This document shows positions 58,207-64,000 of a DNA stretch of 64,000 nt, one piece after another; the stretch's first letter is position 1; each line of letters opens with the position of its first letter. The stretch is from Lachnospiraceae bacterium UBA1818 (GTDB lineage Bacteria > Bacillota > Clostridia > Lachnospirales > Lachnospiraceae): assembly GCA_904419285.1 (NCBI GenBank), contig CAJFQZ010000007.1, positions 95,706-159,705 on the forward strand. The letters run 5' to 3'. The notes below the pieces were generated by a model. It saw nothing but the letters and a program-made list of their open reading frames with translations, ran no database searches and was not told where the DNA came from. The position numbers and the translations under genes are program-made.

Positions 58207-59640
58207 ATGGAATCAATCTGGAGCAGGACATACAGTCTGAGAAAAAAGGATGCGCTGCACAGTGATGTAGCTGCAGATGCCGCTGTGATCGGAGGCGGCA
58301 TGGCGGGAATCCTGACGGCATACCAGCTGGAACGGGCTGGTATGCGCACTGTCGTTCTGGAGGCGGAGCGCATCGGGAGCGGGCAGACAAAGGGGACCAC
58401 CGCCAAGATTACTTCTCAGCATGGAATGTTCTGTCGTTCATTTATCGAAAAGCAGGGAATAGATACCGCGGAAAAATATGTGTGGGCCAATCAGGAGGCA
58501 GTAGAAGAATTCAAAAAGACTGTACAGCGGGAAAAGATTGACTGTGATCTGGAAGAAACCGCTTCCTATGTTTATTCTGATAACGAGGAAGAGCTTATTC
58601 AGGAAAGTGAGGCTGCAGGGAAACTCGGCGTCTGCGCATCTCTGGAAAAGAAGGTAGAGATCCCCGTTCCATGTGCCGGAGCTGTGAGATTTGAACATCA
58701 GGCGCAGTTCCATCCGCTGAAATTCCTGGACGCTCTTGCAGAAGGACTGACAGTCTATGAGAACAGTCCGGTAACAGAAGTAGAGGAGCAGTTTGTCCGC
58801 ACGCCCTGTGGGAGCGTCCGGGCTGACAGCATTATCTTTGCGTTGCACTATCCGTTTATTAATTTCCCGGGGATGTATTTTACCCGGATGCACCAAGCGA
58901 GATCCTATGTGCTGGCTCTGGAGGGAGCGGGAAATATAGAAGGCATGTATATCGGCAGCGGACCGGACGCGTTGTCCTTCAGACAATATGGAAAATATCT
59001 TCTGATCGGAGGGAGGGTTCACCGGACCGGAGAAAACAAAGAGGGCGGCAAGTACGAAGAACTGAGAAACAGAGCGCGCATTCTGTACCCTGGGAGCAGG
59101 GAAACCGCCTGCTGGTCGGCGCAGGACTGCATAACAGCGGATCAGATCCCGTTTATCGGACAGTATGCGCCGGGCCGTCCGCACTGGTTTGCCGCTTCAG
59201 GATTTCAGAAGTGGGGCATGACTTCCTCCATGGTCTCGGCAATGATTCTGAGTGATATCATCTGCGGAAGGCAGAACCCCTATGCAGACATATTTTCTCC
59301 GGAGCGGTTTTCGGCAGAAGAGCTTCCGCAGATCATGAAAGACGGGGGAAAGGCTGTGAAAGGCCTAATCAAAAGATTCTTTCATATCCCCGGTGAAACA
59401 GTGAATCTGATCGAGCCGGGACATGCGGCTGTCGTGGAGACCGCACAGGGCAAAGCAGGCGTCTATAAGACGGAGGAGAACAAGGTGTTTCAGGTTGATA
59501 TTGTATGTCCTCATCTCGGCTGCCAGCTTGTATGGAATCCGGATGAGAGAACCTGGGACTGCCCTTGTCACGGCTCACGGTTTGATTATGAAGGAAATCT
59601 GCTGGAGGGACCGGCGCAGGAGGGAATCCATTATGAGTGA
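58207..59640 (+). CDS. FAD-dependent oxidoreductase with C-terminal Rieske domain
   Basis: 477 residues. DAO-type FAD fold at the N-terminus (AAVIGGGMAGILTAYQLERAG, about 27-47; VLEAERIGSGQTKGTTAK) and a C-terminal Rieske [2Fe-2S] domain (VCPHLGCQLVW ... WDCPCHGSRFDYEG, about 433-461) with both Cys-His ligand pairs. Comparable fusion proteins occur in Bacillus (YhfW). Substrate unknown. ATG 58207 has AAGGAGG 6 bases upstream. Its last bases overlap the start of a small gene fragment. Confidence 0.92.
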   Translation: MESIWSRTYSLRKKDALHSDVAADAAVIGGGMAGILTAYQLERAGMRTVVLEAERIGSGQTKGTTAKITSQHGMFCRSFIEKQGIDTAEKYVWANQEAVEEFKKTVQREKIDCDLEETASYVYSDNEEELIQESEAAGKLGVCASLEKKVEIPVPCAGAVRFEHQAQFHPLKFLDALAEGLTVYENSPVTEVEEQFVRTPCGSVRADSIIFALHYPFINFPGMYFTRMHQARSYVLALEGAGNIEGMYIGSGPDALSFRQYGKYLLIGGRVHRTGENKEGGKYEELRNRARILYPGSRETACWSAQDCITADQIPFIGQYAPGRPHWFAASGFQKWGMTSSMVSAMILSDIICGRQNPYADIFSPERFSAEELPQIMKDGGKAVKGLIKRFFHIPGETVNLIEPGHAAVVETAQGKAGVYKTEENKVFQVDIVCPHLGCQLVWNPDERTWDCPCHGSRFDYEGNLLEGPAQEGIHYE

Positions 59641-59728
59641 GTATTTCTACGGATGGTATTTCCGATGCCAGGGGAATGGGCGCTGTATCGCAGTGATACC
59701 GGCGGTACATCTTCCGGGCAGCAATTGA
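59633..59728 (+). pseudogene. 5' fragment of a tocopherol-cyclase-like gene
   Basis: A 31-codon frame, [16 protein letters not shown] followed by [15 protein letters not shown], with a proper AGGAGGG site and an 8-bp overlap with the Rieske gene stop. FxGWYFRCQ...AxIPAxH is the usual start of tocopherol cyclase/carotenoid-hydratase-like proteins of about 300 residues found in Lachnospiraceae (from memory). Here the frame stops at 59726-59728 and rlmH begins 38 bp later, so the rest has been deleted. Whether the 31-residue peptide is made is unknown. Confidence 0.6.
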
Positions 59729-59766
59729 CAAAGCGGCGTTCGAATACGAGACAAAAGAGGAAGAAA

Positions 59767-60246
59767 ATGAAAATAACAGTAATCGCAGTAGGAAAGATAA
59801 AAGAGAAATATTTAAAAGACGCTCTCGCGGAATACAGTAAAAGGCTGAGCCGCTATTGTAAGCTGGAGATCATAGAGGTGGCGGATGAGAAGACGCCAGA
59901 TCAGGCGAGCAAAGCGGCTGAAGACTTGATCCGGGCAAAAGAAGGCGAGCGTATCCTGAAACATATCCGGGACGATATGTATGTGATCACGCTGGAGATC
60001 GAAGGAAAGATGCTTACCTCCGAGGAGTTCGCAGATAAGATCGAGACTCTGGGCGTGCAGGGGAAGAGCAGCATTGCATTTGTGATAGGCGGTTCCATCG
60101 GACTGGGAAAAGAAGTGCTGAAGCGTTCAGACTTTGCACTCAGCTTTTCGAAGATGACATTTCCGCATCAGCTGATGCGGGTGGTGCTGCTGGAGCAGGT
60201 ATATCGGGGGTATCGGATCATGAATGGGGAACCGTATCACAAGTAG
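59767..60246 (+). CDS. rlmH: 23S rRNA (pseudouridine1915-N3)-methyltransferase RlmH
   Basis: 159-residue SPOUT methyltransferase: [22 protein letters not shown] at the N-terminus, [17 protein letters not shown] knot region, [23 protein letters not shown] and the C-terminal [10 protein letters not shown]. Full length and intact. Its 3' end (GGGAACCGTATCACAAGTAG) resembles the staphylococcal orfX/rlmH end used as the SCC attachment site, and a diverged copy of this end and of the terminator lies 1.6 kb downstream. Confidence 0.96.
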
Positions 60247-60310
60247 GGGCGTTTTTCGCATTGGGGTGTGATATGGTGTGAAGTAATGAATCATGTAAAG
60301 TGTTTGGAAA

Positions 60311-60342
60311 GGGAGTGGACAGATGATGGTCCACTCTCTTTT
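60311..60342 (+). terminator. terminator of rlmH (in repeat A)
   Basis: GAGTGGAC (60313-60320), loop AGATGATG, GTCCACTC (60329-60336), then TCTTTTTG. Confidence 0.88.
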
Positions 60343-60361
60343 TGCATATTCAAGAAAGAAA

Positions 60362-60390
60362 ATGACAGAGAAATGCTGGGGTGTTATAAT
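60362..60390 (+). promoter_or_regulatory. promoter in repeat A
   Basis: ATGACA (60362-60367), 17-bp spacer, TATAAT (60385-60390). The same hexamers and spacing recur in copy B, so the promoter is conserved within the repeat and would drive the small genes after it. Confidence 0.75.
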
Positions 60391-60516
60391 AGACTAAAGT
60401 AATTTGTCGACTTAAAATTTTATGCACATAAAAACTTATTTGAAAATATTGCTGTGGAAGAAAGAGATGCAACATGTAATTTTATTCGCAATTGAAACTA
60501 ATTGAGGTCTAGAAAA

Positions 60517-60843
60517 ATGAAAACATATTATCAAAATGGAATAGTTGAGGATGTTCACTATTTTATAGATAAAACTGATGAATTTCAGATTCAAGAATTA
60601 GATAACGAAACACAAAATAGGTTTACTTATCCAGAGGACTCCATTAATTATGCTTTAGATGGAGAGATATGCGTGTTATATGACACACTGAGAGATATGA
60701 TATTTGATGATATAGATCAATACTATCAAGAGTTGAGTATCTTACCTATATGGGTTCAAGAGGCTGGGCAAAATTCTGACTGTGTTATAAGCGTAGATAC
60801 ATTTAATGAATGGATAAGTGAGAGTAACATTCCTAATTCGTGA
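60517..60843 (+). CDS. hypothetical protein, first gene of repeat-flanked module
   Basis: 108-residue acidic soluble protein rich in Asp, Glu and Tyr; no recognised domain, signal or membrane segment. ATG 60517 has GAGGT (60504-60508) 8 bases upstream. Base composition is AT-rich compared with the core genes. It lies 15 bp before the DUF3990-like gene and probably shares its transcript from the repeat A promoter. Its last codons overlap a variant of the junction motif (TTCCTAATT, 60830-60838). Confidence 0.7.
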   Translation: MKTYYQNGIVEDVHYFIDKTDEFQIQELDNETQNRFTYPEDSINYALDGEICVLYDTLRDMIFDDIDQYYQELSILPIWVQEAGQNSDCVISVDTFNEWISESNIPNS

Positions 60844-60858
60844 AGGAGTAAAAAGTAT

Positions 60859-61311
60859 ATGATTTTATATCATGGAAGTAATGTAACAGTTCAAGAACCG
60901 CAGATCTTGGAAAATGGATTTTACAAAGATTTCGGCTACGGATTTTATTGTACCATTATAGAAAAACAGGCAAAACGCTGGGCTTTGACAAAACGTAGAA
61001 AGCATATTGTCAATTTTTATGAATATTTACCTGATAAAGACCTGAACATAAAAAAGTTTAGTGAGATGACAGAGGAGTGGCTGCAGTTTGTCGTAAACTG
61101 CCGGCTTGGTTTAAAACATGATTATGACATTGTTGAGGGACCAATGGCGGATGATACAATCTGGGATTATGTTGAGGATTATATGGCTGAACGAATTTCA
61201 AAAGCGGCTTTCTGGGAATTGGTTAAGTTTAAGTATCCGACACATCAGATTGTATTCTGCACAGAGAAAGCATTACAGACTATCAAATTTGAAGGGAGTT
61301 ATTCGCTATGA
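60859..61311 (+). CDS. DUF3990-like protein, probable ADP-ribosyltransferase fold
   Basis: 150 residues. The start LYHGSNVTVQEPQIL, followed by DFGYGFYCTIIEKQAKRWAL, matches the DUF3990 pattern (Y-H-G-S, then F-G-x-G-F-Y-x-T, then QA..WA), a family placed in the ART superfamily and common in small toxin-like modules (from memory, unverified). A conserved Glu/Gln near the C-terminus (HQIVFCTEKAL) may complete the site. GGAG site upstream; ends in a 4-bp ATGA overlap with the next gene, so the two proteins are made together. Confidence 0.65.
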   Translation: MILYHGSNVTVQEPQILENGFYKDFGYGFYCTIIEKQAKRWALTKRRKHIVNFYEYLPDKDLNIKKFSEMTEEWLQFVVNCRLGLKHDYDIVEGPMADDTIWDYVEDYMAERISKAAFWELVKFKYPTHQIVFCTEKALQTIKFEGSYSL

Positions 61312-61778
61312 CAAATAAATTTTTCCCAGAAGAGCAAATAACCCAGAATGATCTTTATTTTCTGTGTTATATGATAGAACGCATAGCAAGGAAATTACAT
61401 CAGAAAAACAAATATGTTGTTAATTCTATAGCTAAAGATGAGTGGGTGCGTCTGATCAGCCTGGCTAATGTACTTCACTGTGAGAATCCTCTGAAAATTG
61501 AAGATGAATGGATTGAAGAGTATAAGTTAGCAAGAGGAAATTTTGATATTACGGATGTCAATTCAGAACTGGTAGATGAGATTCCATCAGAAACACAGAT
61601 GGGGAAGGTGTATACAAGGCTGATTCTGTCAACGTTACAGCCAGAGGAAGATTATATTGATGGAATGATCCGAGTATATAACGATGAAATATGTGATACG
61701 ATTGATAATTACAATAGCAGTGCATATTATGAACCGTCTTATGTGATCACAAGAGCTTATAATAATGGGGGATTTTAA
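61308..61778 (+). CDS. conserved hypothetical partner of DUF3990-like gene
   Basis: 156-residue soluble protein, start overlapping the stop of the preceding gene (ATGA). QNDLYFLCYMIERIARKL followed by NKYVVNSIAKDEWVRLISLANVLHC, and the C-terminal DNYNSSAYYEPSYVITRAY, look like a conserved helical family in Lachnospiraceae, but no named domain is recognised with certainty. Tight coupling suggests it may neutralise or modulate the ART-like protein. Function is inference. Confidence 0.65.
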   Translation: MTNKFFPEEQITQNDLYFLCYMIERIARKLHQKNKYVVNSIAKDEWVRLISLANVLHCENPLKIEDEWIEEYKLARGNFDITDVNSELVDEIPSETQMGKVYTRLILSTLQPEEDYIDGMIRVYNDEICDTIDNYNSSAYYEPSYVITRAYNNGGF

Positions 61779-61808
61779 AAGGAACCGAAAACCGCACTTG
61801 GATACGTT

Positions 61809-61993
61809 ATGGGGAGCCGTATCACAAGTAAGTGAGGTTTTTTCGCATTTAGTTGTAATATGGTATGAAGTAATGAATCATGTGGAGTATTTGAAAGGGA
61901 GTGGACGATGATGTTCCGCTCTCTTTTCGTATGGGTAAGAAAGACAATGACAGGGAAATAAACGAATGGTATAATGAAATAAAATAGGTCGAC
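61809..61993 (+). repeat. direct repeat copy B: diverged rlmH end, terminator, promoter
   Basis: 185-bp partner of 60224-60411. ATGGGGAGCCGTATCACAAG corresponds to the rlmH 3' end without a functional rlmH in front; the hairpin (GAGTGGAC, 61899-61906, with GTTCCGCTC, 61913-61921, then TCTTTTC) keeps its stem through compensating pairs; ATGACA-17-TATAAT and GTCGAC are conserved. Reads as a second attachment-site-like end. Confidence 0.85.
61947..61975 (+). promoter_or_regulatory. promoter in repeat B
   Basis: ATGACA (61947-61952), 17-bp spacer, TATAAT (61970-61975), 65 bases before the DUF1648-like gene. Confidence 0.75.
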
Positions 61994-62039
61994 AGATTGG
62001 AATTTATGTTTATGTCATGCCTAGAATGGAGTGTTTTGA

Positions 62040-62477
62040 ATGTTTAGATTGTCACCAATAAAATTATGGAGAAATATCTCAATAATAATGTTTCTGCTAG
62101 CAATAATTTTTTGTTTGTTCGGAACCTTTACCATTCATGGTGATTTGGTTGTACATTGGAATGAGGTAGGAGTTCCGAATAATTCTACCGGGAAATGGTT
62201 TTTATGGGCTATGCTGTTAATGGCATTTTTATCTATGTTTACGCATAGTAGCTTTTCAAAAAAGCGTCCTGGACAAAATTCGTTAAGTATGGAGATGTCC
62301 GGGGCTTTTTCAACTGCATTGCTATCTACTTGGTCTATAACCAATATAATATTGGTGACCTATTATTTCTATCCATTAACAGATATTGTTATTATGGGTT
62401 CAATAGCTATTGTTTTCTGTTATATTTTATTTCCTATAATTGCTTATATTCGGAACAGAAAAAACAACAAATCCTAA
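62040..62477 (+). CDS. DUF1648/SdpI-like membrane protein
   Basis: 145 residues with four predicted membrane helices (about 12-32, 53-70, 89-107, 115-135). VVHWNEVGVPNNSTGKWFLW resembles the DUF1648 motif (I-P-x-H-W-N-x-x-G), found in SdpI-type immunity proteins. It lacks the long C-terminus of SdpI. AT-rich. The ninth-from-last to stop codons form part of a junction motif copy (62467-62483). Confidence 0.65.
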   Translation: MFRLSPIKLWRNISIIMFLLAIIFCLFGTFTIHGDLVVHWNEVGVPNNSTGKWFLWAMLLMAFLSMFTHSSFSKKRPGQNSLSMEMSGAFSTALLSTWSITNIILVTYYFYPLTDIVIMGSIAIVFCYILFPIIAYIRNRKNNKS

Positions 62478-62483
62478 TTTGTA
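62467..62483 (+). repeat. junction motif copy 1
   Basis: acaaatcctaatttgta: ACAAAT and ATTTGT are inverted around CCTA. Identical 17 bp recur at 63063-63079. Core ATCCTAATT. Confidence 0.8.
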
Positions 62484-62519
62484 GTCCGGATAATTAGAAG
62501 AGATAAGGAGAAATTTTTT

Positions 62520-62867
62520 ATGACAGCGGAAGAAGTGTTTTGTGATTTGTATGATAAATATGGTAAAGATTTTACTTGGCACATGATTCCGTTATCGCAA
62601 TCAAACGGAACTTTGGTTGAAGAACTAAAAAAAGAAATTGGAAATAATCATTTTCTATACAATAGAAGAATATGGGCCGTGGCAATGTGCGAAGGAAATG
62701 GGGATGTATTGTATGTTACTGGAAGTGAAAATGGAAAAGATATTTATTATATTTTTTCGCTGAAGTATTCGGTGGATAATAACATAGACGGATTTCTAAA
62801 GTACAAGGAATTTAAAGATATATATGAAGTAAAGGATTTTATTGAACAATCATTAAGTGAGAATTAA
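62520..62867 (+). CDS. hypothetical protein
   Basis: 115-residue soluble protein with no recognised domain; aromatic-rich with GGDVLYVTGSENGKDIYYIF-like beta segments (GNGDVLYVTGSENGKDIYYI). GGAG site (62508-62511) upstream. Looks like the small immunity-type or orphan proteins common in accessory arrays, but this is not demonstrated. A junction motif copy follows at 62881. Confidence 0.6.
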   Translation: MTAEEVFCDLYDKYGKDFTWHMIPLSQSNGTLVEELKKEIGNNHFLYNRRIWAVAMCEGNGDVLYVTGSENGKDIYYIFSLKYSVDNNIDGFLKYKEFKDIYEVKDFIEQSLSEN

Positions 62868-62880
62868 TTTGAAACAGTAA

Positions 62881-62889
62881 ATCCTAATT
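62881..62889 (+). repeat. junction motif copy 2
   Basis: ATCCTAATT, 14 bases after the stop of the preceding gene and 16 before the next start. Confidence 0.75.
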
Positions 62890-62904
62890 CTGGAGACGAT
62901 TTGG

Positions 62905-63063
62905 ATGGAATATCTAAAGTTATTTTGGAAGCATAATCTCGATGATGAGCCAGTTGTAATTCTTTATGAGATAAATAAAAGCAATGAACGGTTAGCAATT
63001 AGGTCTATTGATATATTTGAACAAACATGGAATAATCATTACTATGGGAATGCTTTATCTTGA
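62905..63063 (+). CDS. short DUF6881-like protein, probably C-terminally truncated
   Basis: 52 residues beginning MEYLKLFWKHNLDDEPVVIL, which follows the DUF6881 start (MEYIKVxWxHxxxDEP) from memory; the next segment RSIDIFEQTWNNHYYG corresponds to the V-x-I-F-x-x-G region. The family is nearer 90 residues, so about 35-40 C-terminal residues are missing; the frame stops at the junction motif (63061-63063). Probably a decayed cassette. Confidence 0.5.
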   Translation: MEYLKLFWKHNLDDEPVVILYEINKSNERLAIRSIDIFEQTWNNHYYGNALS

Positions 63064-63079
63064 CAAATCCTAATTTGTA
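63063..63079 (+). repeat. junction motif copy 3
   Basis: acaaatcctaatttgta, identical to 62467-62483. Directly followed by a GGGAG ribosome-binding site for the next gene. Confidence 0.8.
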
Positions 63080-63093
63080 AGGGAGATGACTTT

Positions 63094-63510
63094 GTGAAAA
63101 AATTAAGTGAAGATGCTGAAAAAATAATGGCGGAACGATTTGGAAAAGATACCATTATTGCATTGGCAACAGTAGAAAATGAGGTGCCTTTTGTACGTTA
63201 TGTAAATGCTTATTATGAGAAAGGTGCATTTTATATTATTACATATGCACTTTCAAATAAAATGAGGCATATGGAAAGCAACTCTACTGTAGCAATAGCT
63301 GGTGAATGGTTCACGGCACATGGAAAGAGTATCAATTTGGGATATTTCGGGAAAGAGGAAAATTATCGGATTGCCGAGAAACTAAAAAAGGTATTTTCTG
63401 AGTGGATTGACAATGGACATAATAATTTTGATGATGAGAATACTATAATTTTATGTGTAGAATTAACCGATGGACTGTTACTTGCACATGGAACAATGTA
63501 TGAGTTTTAG
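63094..63510 (+). CDS. pyridoxamine 5'-phosphate oxidase family protein
   Basis: 138-residue split-barrel flavin-binding-like protein: IIALATVENEVPFVRYVNAYYEKGAFYIITYALSNKMRHME (quoted here in parts: IIALATVENEVPFVRYVNA, FYIITYALSNKMRHM) and VAIAGEWFTAHGKSINLG. Such proteins often bind FMN or F420; substrate unknown. GTG 63094 lies 8 bases after GGGAG. Stands between two junction motif copies. Confidence 0.75.
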   Translation: MKKLSEDAEKIMAERFGKDTIIALATVENEVPFVRYVNAYYEKGAFYIITYALSNKMRHMESNSTVAIAGEWFTAHGKSINLGYFGKEENYRIAEKLKKVFSEWIDNGHNNFDDENTIILCVELTDGLLLAHGTMYEF

Positions 63511-63536
63511 TTTTCAGTTTCCGGTTTGTATGGCAG

Positions 63537-63545
63537 ATCCTAATT
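63537..63545 (+). repeat. junction motif copy 4
   Basis: ATCCTAATT, 26 bases after the PPOX-like gene stop. A fifth, variant copy (TTCCTAATT) is at 60830-60838. Confidence 0.75.
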
Positions 63546-63562
63546 TAAAAATATTCTTAATG

Positions 63563-63571
63563 TGATATAAT
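63563..63571 (+). promoter_or_regulatory. extended -10 promoter of last gene pair
   Basis: TGA-TATAAT (TATAAT at 63566-63571), no clear -35; 34 bases before the next start. Confidence 0.5.
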
Positions 63572-63604
63572 AGTAGCGTATAAGAAGTAGGGAGGAATTA
63601 TGAT

Positions 63605-63877
63605 ATGATGTATCCGTTTATGACATTGAATGATGAAACAGAGATTGTTCATTCTGATATGCAGAATGATGGAAGAGTTAAAGTGTATATCGAAAGACCG
63701 GATGAAAAATATGGATTTAAACATGCTACATGCTGGCTCCCCGATTACACATGGGAAGATATTTACCATTTTTCGGAAGAAGAGATTAAGCAATTCGAAG
63801 AGATAATAAGATCAACTGCTCATCTTATTATTGAATTCTCTCAGGAAGGGGGCTTTGAGAATGCCTCAAATCTTTAG
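63605..63877 (+). CDS. small DUF4160-partner protein
   Basis: 90 residues: MYPFMTLNDETEIVHSDM, KVYIERPDEKYGFKHATCWLPDY and EEEIKQFEEIIRSTAHLI. Proteins of this shape usually precede DUF4160 genes, as here, in a two-gene module possibly of toxin-antitoxin type (from memory, unproven). GGAGGA (63591-63596) upstream; ATG 63608 is an alternative start. Overlaps the next frame by 17 bp. Confidence 0.65.
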   Translation: MMYPFMTLNDETEIVHSDMQNDGRVKVYIERPDEKYGFKHATCWLPDYTWEDIYHFSEEEIKQFEEIIRSTAHLIIEFSQEGGFENASNL

Positions 63878-64000
63878 AATGGGAGAATACTGAATTTATT
63901 TCTGGACAAATGAGAATAAACCTGTTGAACCGATCCACGTACATATCGCAAAAGGAAAGCCTTCCGAAAATGCAACAAAGGTATGGATTACCAGCGCAGG
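63861..64000 (+). pseudogene. DUF4160 gene with in-frame TGA, 3' end outside window
   Basis: ATG 63861 opens MPQIFRMGEY, then TGA at 63891-63893, then IYFWTNENKPVEPIHVHIAK and GKPSENATKVWITSAG to the edge in the same frame. Homologues have MPxIxRxGxYxIYFWxNE-type sequence, so TGA stands at a residue of the conserved N-terminus where a sense codon is expected (likely Val/Trp/Lys position). A single-base change could explain it. The gene is therefore a probable pseudogene or needs read-through. Confidence 0.7.

Follow-up and report, generated by a model that had tools for sequence, protein, structure and literature searches.

The 3' end of rlmH in Lachnospiraceae bacterium UBA1818 is followed by repeats that delimit small gene modules, and we read these repeats, with a probability of about 0.7, as successive attachment (att) junctions of small integrative cassettes that are stacked at the rlmH 3' end, resemble the staphylococcal cassette chromosome (SCC), carry no ccr genes and are mobilised in trans. 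The window, that is the whole stretch of 64,000 nucleotides that was analysed (G000:C7:95706-159705), ends where contig C7 ends. Coordinates are window positions throughout, L labels stand for loci, G labels for genomes (G000 being the own genome, which is 94% complete) and C7, C31, C15 and C30 for contigs of the own genome. The closest named RlmH matches are from Mediterraneibacter, and the G+C content around the rlmH stop codon changes from 49.8% before it to 33.9% after it.

A preliminary description of this DNA had pointed out that the rlmH end recurs downstream together with a terminator and a promoter, which alignment confirms. Copy A (60224-60411) is the end of rlmH, copy B (61809-61993) has its core 1,585 bp behind the rlmH-end core, and a small gene module, here module 1, lies between them. 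The copies are identical in 149 of 190 aligned columns (78.4%), with 83% identity in the best 151-bp stretch and 84-85% in the direct-repeat pieces; the repeat is real and far beyond chance. Both copies consist of the rlmH end, a hairpin terminator and an ATGACA-17-TATAAT promoter and contain a GTCGAC hexamer (60406-60411 and 61988-61993), promoters and hexamers being present as had been described. The promoters are the top two promoter-like sites of the region 59600-64000 with 11 of 12 consensus matches each. Both hairpins fold strongly, at -22.2 kcal/mol in unit A (0 of 200 shuffles as good) and -17.0 kcal/mol in unit B (2 of 200); a simple terminator scan of 59600-64000 flagged neither, and Rfam gave no match in the same region up to E 1. 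Across 22 aligned terminators the helix is kept, with 94.9% of the cells pairing. The compensating stem changes reported earlier are not supported by this alignment, where none of the 14 stem pairs is changed on both sides.

The repeats are confined to one side of rlmH. Among 80 named rlmH loci, a profile of the unit has no match upstream of the gene (660 kb) and 24 matches on its downstream side (507 kb), of which 23 share the strand of rlmH and one, a weak match, does not, and a profile of the att site has none upstream and 21 downstream, in 14 loci and all on the rlmH strand, both profiles having been built from sites in some of those same 80 loci.

Comparison of 52 internal and 43 rlmH-proximal sites revealed a common order at internal junctions, in which a right end (AACCGCACTTGGATACGTTA) is followed by a core made of the last rlmH codons (TGGRGARCCRTATCAYAARTAA) and a left end (GTGCGGTTTTTTCGCATTTGG), each with variants. 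The outer parts of the junction form an inverted repeat that brackets the directly repeated rlmH end, and by inspection and counting the dyad at internal junctions takes the form AACCGCACTT-GGATACG...CGTATCACAAGT-AAGTGCGGTT. At the second core of the window, 61787-61800 pairs with 61829-61842 in a fold of -19.3 kcal/mol, with 1 of 200 shuffles as good. Allowing up to 4 mismatches, the 18-base form of the right end is present at 46 of the 52 internal sites (a partly circular count, as discussed below), at 0 of the 43 proximal sites and in 15 of 20,000 random windows; the six internal sites that do not have it are in L064, L085, L143, L151, L152 and L153. The left-end form is found at 22/52 internal and 27/43 proximal sites (38/20,000 random windows). 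By their left flanks, the internal sites form 16 clusters in addition to that of rlmH. The earlier proposal that each inserted unit brings its own rlmH end, terminator and promoter stood in part, since the right-flank cluster holding the full unit (single linkage at no less than 80% identity over at least 75 bp) accounts for 19/52 internal and 25/43 rlmH-proximal junctions and other elements begin differently; a lenient promoter pattern (up to 3 mismatches, used without a random control) is matched at 37/50 and 29/42 sites.

After dropping four duplicate loci, at least two sites occur in 23 of 61 loci, array contigs without rlmH included, and the 34 intervals between adjacent sites range from 51 bp to 7.4 kb, 22 of them measuring 1-3 kb. 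Cores only 51-56 bp apart occur at L014:4397-4448, L028:10480-10531, L030:10480-10531, L143:2560-2611 and L033:7432-7488; these closely spaced pairs are empty mini-cassettes with little beyond the two end sequences. At L029:14551-16589 in Claveliimonas bilis, a unit is split directly after the terminator stem by a stretch holding an open reading frame (ORF) that by eye resembles a group II intron reverse transcriptase.

A filled and an empty site were found in two related genomes, at C. bilis L029 (complete genome) and L144 (G380, a single contig of 3.11 Mb), respectively. The left flanks, which begin ahead of rlmH and run slightly beyond the att site, agree at 98.6% over 5,132 bp, the sequence to the right of the next att of L029 agrees at 98.9% over 630 bp, and L029 holds 3,675 bp extra between its two sites. 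The single att of L144 is a hybrid, composed of CTTGAGTACGTTATAGGGAACC as in the first att of L029 and GCGTCACGAGTAAGTGTGG as in the second, so that by inspection the exchange falls inside GGGAACC, at or near the dyad centre. Around the exchange, the two L029 sites have no more than these 7 bases in common, and their longest identity within 80 bp is 12 bases, which is too little for ordinary homologous recombination. With the SCC-like att architecture, the downstream sites on the same strand and this precise pair, the description of rlmH as an integration hotspot is upheld. Comparing copy numbers among relatives yielded loci with more copies as well as loci with a single rlmH-end site, and not the same two copies everywhere with no empty site.

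A wider view of the exchange point was obtained from 250 junction pairs, not independent of one another, that were aligned through the core. Judged over 60 bp, 111 pairs share neither flank, 64 the left flank only, 50 the right flank only and 25 both. In proximal/internal pairs sharing the right flank only, homology ends between -4 and +1 bp of the core start in 36 of 36 cases (admitted: -10 to +59), in the 14 internal/internal right-only pairs it ends 7-21 bp to the left of the core start, within the right inverted repeat (IR-R), and in the 64 left-only pairs it ends between -8 and +48 bp after the core. These positions bear on the alternative that cassettes arrive by DNA uptake or conjugation and are then moved by RecA-type homologous recombination in which the ~190-bp units pair, the att-like appearance being a relic. 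The units are indeed long and alike, the own genome has no serine recombinase matches, many homology endpoints lie at neither boundary type (see below), and some species share a unit and differ in the cargo right behind it, as is the case for copy B of the window and L025 (98.5% over 199 bp). However, pairs sharing one flank lose homology at the core and not across the unit, and the parental sites at the crossover between L029 and L144 share only the few bases given above, which makes this alternative unlikely in our view.

Across species, junctions combine the same flank with different partners. The internal site L096@442 and the rlmH-proximal L021 are 96.5% identical over 768 bp beginning at the core, the right flank of L029@12132 in C. 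bilis matches L021 (88.5% over 774 bp) and L024, and L012@11924 matches L015 and L039 at 95.5% and 89.6% over 154 bp; the match of window copy B to L025, given above, is a further clear case. The core marks the end of one DUF4160-type pair in each of L017, L029, L036, L087, L093, L143 and L144, with several different right neighbours. In 91 of the 110 locus pairs that have 400 bp or more of array in common, the cassettes are more than 5 points more identical than rlmH (median +14.8), although the compared 12-kb stretches may include ordinary chromosomal genes behind the array, and the order of segments differs in 23 pairs; between C. bilis and M. catenae, cassettes agree at 94.1% and rlmH at 72.9%. 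Judging by these identities, cassettes have been exchanged across species and genus borders. If the rlmH end had been duplicated locally in tandem long ago and passed on by vertical descent, the homology of the copies over terminator and promoter would be accounted for. This explanation was rejected on the strength of the cross-species shuffling of junctions and is highly improbable, because the right flank that stands behind rlmH in one species is found behind an internal site in another, segment order varies, cassettes are more alike than rlmH, and a filled/empty pair exists.

The array is not peculiar to this genome. Copy B is matched at E <= 0.001 in 35 of 58 genus genomes, in some by short pieces alone, and rlmH was detected in 45 of the 58; the 70-bp att of copy B is matched in 25 of 397 genomes of a family sample, 9 of these 25 genomes (own genome included) having a match that starts within the first 10 bases, which are the right-end part, and the others matching mainly the rlmH end. 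A same-strand array downstream of rlmH occurs in many Mediterraneibacter and in some other Lachnospiraceae. In the own genome, a third repeat copy and a partial fourth lie on contig C31, and the end of C7 (63635-64000) is 97.3% alike (356 of 366 bases) to the start of the reversed C31 (1-366), so the array probably continues from C7 onto C31, a strain variant or second copy also being possible. A run of 22 N stands at 447-468 of the C31 reverse strand, inside the DUF4160-type gene before the third att. This apparent continuation past the contig end, the exchange between genera and the second boundary treated below go beyond the preliminary description.

The preliminary description had advised looking near rlmH for serine recombinases of the Ccr type or other integrases, and none was found in the array. 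PF07508 is matched somewhere in 45 of 58 genus genomes, the nearest match listed on an rlmH contig being 25 kb away in G074, and between two cores no recombinase was seen among the matches listed (PF07508 in the 58 genus genomes, PF00589 in 13 genomes) or in the ORFs read by eye. When the window and the loci then gathered were searched by tblastn with 26 serine recombinase ORFs, again none lay between two cores; matches fell in L104, which is not an array, and in L107 and L108 (C. bilis, beyond the array), with a weak match in L110, ~25 kb downstream of rlmH in G074. Since the contig often stops shortly behind rlmH, a linked recombinase may still exist in some loci. By eye, L107 and L108 of the complete C. 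bilis genome hold an apparent integrative element with serine recombinases and a gene of the tetracycline ribosomal-protection type.

Several points weigh against our reading of the repeats as trans-mobilised, SCC-like cassettes. Neither PF00239 nor PF07508 (resolvase and large serine recombinase) has a match in the own genome, and neither CcrA (299 family genomes, best score 142 of 700 bits) nor CcrB (58 genus genomes, best score 235 of 900) reached the cut-off in any genome, CcrC not having been searched. No circular cassette form and no mobility were seen, and of the 406 homology endpoints, 292 have neither boundary type within 20 bp. A further difference between L029 and L144, of ~0.8 kb (838 versus 36 bases), follows 630 bp behind the att, at a place that has no att. 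The right-end count of 46/52 is partly circular, the sites having been chosen with a profile that includes this end; the unrelated flanks are not affected. The compared locus pairs are related, and some genomes are represented by two contigs. Finally, module 1 DNA has no match in phage and plasmid records and its 156-aa protein none in viral contigs.

Each cassette starts right after an rlmH-end core with a form of GTGCGGTTTTTTCGCATTTGG and ends with a form of AACCGCACTTGGATACGTTA just before the next core, and the terminator and promoter that often stand behind the left end would insulate its genes and drive their expression. For the movement of cassettes the following course may be envisaged. 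Another element would supply in trans a site-specific recombinase, most likely of the large serine type, that cuts the core at or near the dyad centre, allowing cassettes to excise, circularise and integrate at any rlmH end. The short ACARAT-NNN-AATTT boundary treated next would let promoterless genes join or leave behind the promoter, and cargo such as the protein pair of module 1 would be retained as host defence.

Within the units, homology often begins or ends at a second, short boundary, which reads ACAAATCCTAATTTGT between genes, where it separates promoterless genes, or ACAGATTGGAATTT behind the promoter. Searched with up to 2 mismatches, these two forms of the motif occur 51 and 81 times on the array strand (132 in 349 kb) versus 11 and 24 times on the other strand (35); sequence of similar length from upstream of rlmH has 2/5 and 27/18 occurrences (29/23 together). 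Two control motif pairs have 6 and 11 occurrences on the array strand and no endpoint nearby. Of the 406 homology endpoints, 63 lie within 20 bp of the short motif (random mean 10.3, maximum 19 of 200) and 51 within 20 bp of a core (random mean 6.0, maximum 11 of 200). The motif often stands between a stop codon and the ribosome-binding-like sequence of the next gene (38/51 and 55/81 by a loose pattern). Homology of the window to C. bilis L029 jumps at such a boundary from 61997 to 63062, homology of the DUF3990 cassette begins at 60831-60833 in L007, L013, L014, L016, L022 and L029 (twice) and at 60821, 60841 and 60843 in L008, L010 and L032, and the left boundary of the PNPOx gene is seen in 10 loci, window included. 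The form ACAAATCCTAATTTGTA has two exact copies in the window versus 0.14 expected with up to 3 mismatches, and within 1 mismatch two matches in the own genome, both in the array.

Integrons hold small genes that lack promoters of their own, are all oriented alike downstream of a promoter and are set apart by short recombination-like sites. The genes between these boundaries are arranged in the same way, except that promoter units recur along the array. A tyrosine recombinase, of which the own genome has three PF00589 matches (C15 and C30 among the places listed), might insert single-gene cassettes at ACARAT-NNN-AATTT behind the promoter, with the rlmH-end sites as a second system; free cassette circles would then be joined at ACAAATCC|TAATTTGT. 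The strand bias of the motif and the endpoints near it favour such a platform, as does one gene that follows different left halves of the motif. Against it, no integron integrase was recognised beside the array among the ORFs read by eye, the sites measure 14-17 bp and are far smaller than attC, the crossover position within the motif varies, the TGG form is frequent by chance and has a clear chance background (its 27 and 18 matches upstream of rlmH); we regard an integron-like platform as rather doubtful. Tentatively, and at somewhat less than even odds, both boundaries might be combined in a two-tier platform without a recombinase of its own, in which rlmH-end att sites stack terminator and promoter units, promoterless single genes are added at ACARAT-NNN-AATTT, palindromic where two cassettes meet, and enzymes act in trans, giving an integron-like shared pool of small defence-type genes in gut Lachnospiraceae.

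The features of the window are collected in Table 1. Both proteins of module 1 match PDC-M10 in PADLOC-DB 2.0.0 over nearly their full length, and both component models were hit; PDC-M10 is a candidate phage-defence pair, which here lies inside an rlmH cassette. The DUF4160-type gene at the window end is broken by an early in-frame stop (63891-63893), and relatives hold intact copies. Cargo elsewhere includes SUKH/SMI1, DUF4160, PNPOx, flavin reductase and RibD-like genes and a DUF3795-like gene below the cut-off. A larger stretch beside rlmH (L014:4491-9789) holds, by eye, an AraC-type regulator, a sugar transporter-like protein and an alpha-galactosidase-like gene, and metabolic operons may therefore use the site too.

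Table 1. Features at the rlmH locus, in window coordinates (IR-L, left inverted repeat).
Feature	Position	Strand	Evidence
rlmH, SPOUT methyltransferase, anchor gene	59767..60246	+	Pfam PF02590, E 9.3e-62
att core 1 (attL), TGGGGAACCGTATCACAAGTAG, last rlmH codons	60225..60246	+	core table of 52 internal and 43 proximal sites
left element end, IR-L-like, GGGCGTTTTTCGCATTGGGG	60247..60266	+	place relative to core, comparison with other sites
terminator hairpin, unit A	60306..60343	+	folding; helix kept in 22 aligned terminators
promoter ATGACA-17-TATAAT, unit A	60362..60390	+	11/12 consensus
first cargo gene, 108 aa from ATG	60517..60843	+	ORF; no Pfam or PADLOC match
degenerate second-type boundary, CCTAATTCGTGAAGG	60832..60846	+	start of DUF3990-cassette homology to other species
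DUF3990 gene, matches PDC-M10A	60859..61311	+	PF13151 1.8e-52; PADLOC PDLC04411 4.5e-78
156 aa partner gene, matches PDC-M10B	61308..61778	+	PADLOC PDLC04416 1.5e-87, residues 1-156
right element end IR-R, AACCGCACTTGGATACGTTA	61790..61809	+	18-base form counts at internal versus proximal sites
att core 2, rlmH-end copy in copy B	61810..61831	+	core table, A/B alignment
IR-L of next element, GTGAGGTTTTTTCGCATTTAG	61832..61852	+	fold, core table
terminator hairpin, unit B	61893..61927	+	-17.0 kcal/mol
promoter, unit B	61947..61975	+	11/12 consensus
second-type boundary behind promoter, ACAGATTGGAATTT	61992..62005	+	homology switch to L029, motif table
145 aa membrane-type gene	62040..62477	+	ORF; DUF1648 below cut-off
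second-type boundary, ACAAATCCTAATTTGTA, contains stop codon of preceding gene	62467..62483	+	exact-copy count
115 aa gene	62520..62867	+	ORF; no Pfam or PADLOC family
52 aa DUF6881-like gene, short	62905..63063	+	PF21812 1.2e-6, over cut-off
second-type boundary, ACAAATCCTAATTTGTA, before PNPOx gene	63063..63079	+	exact copy, alignment
pyridoxamine 5'-phosphate oxidase-like (PNPOx) gene, common to several species	63094..63510	+	PF01243 2.3e-6, just over cut-off
90 aa gene of two-gene pair	63605..63877	+	ORF, cross-species homology
DUF4160-type gene, cut by contig end	63861..64000	+	sequence; intact copies in relatives

If cassettes of this kind are indeed stacked at rlmH, an SCC-type system would be present in a gut bacterial class far from staphylococci and enterococci, with minimal elements that apparently lack a recombinase of their own, cross genera and carry a candidate phage-defence pair. 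The locus would also offer a compact case of a chromosome collecting and expressing small accessory genes behind insulated promoters, and a trans-acting recombinase yet to be recognised is predicted. In the open PMC literature, we found no paper on rlmH cassettes in Lachnospiraceae.

Among known systems, the enterococcal cassette chromosome (ECC) has an att of ~50 bp whose core is TATCATAA, with inverted repeats present in both attR and attECC; its cargo varies, 16 of 32 ECCs have more than one attR site, and it carries ccrAB and 42 ORFs on average (PMC6222049). The rlmH 3' end, an att with such a core (as a rule TATCAYAA here), the inverted repeats, the variable cargo and the occurrence of multiple sites are common to both; the intervals here hold as a rule few small genes, and no ccr was found (CcrC not searched). 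With SCC, the array shares insertion at the orfX/rlmH 3' end, direct repeats with the integration site, terminal inverted repeats and tandem stacking. It differs in its Lachnospiraceae host, the recurrent terminator-promoter unit, the second boundary type and an own genome without a serine recombinase match. Elements of SCC type without ccr have precedents in the 16.5-kb pseudo-SCC of S. aureus S0385, in tandem with SCCmec (PMC2900268), and in an SCC-like remnant of S. haemolyticus WCH1 (PMC3637587); such an element is thought to depend on a recombinase in trans, as proposed here, and the intervals here, mostly 1-3 kb, are far shorter than the 16.5 kb of S0385. Of the hallmarks of SCC and ECC, the array has integration at the rlmH 3' end and dyad inverted repeats at the right junction, and no ccr gene was recognised in the element (CcrC not searched), as in the S0385 pseudo-SCC and the WCH1 region. 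By analogy, it would work like an SCC or ECC cassette with the recombinase acting in trans, and may be likened to staphylococcal SCC elements in miniature.

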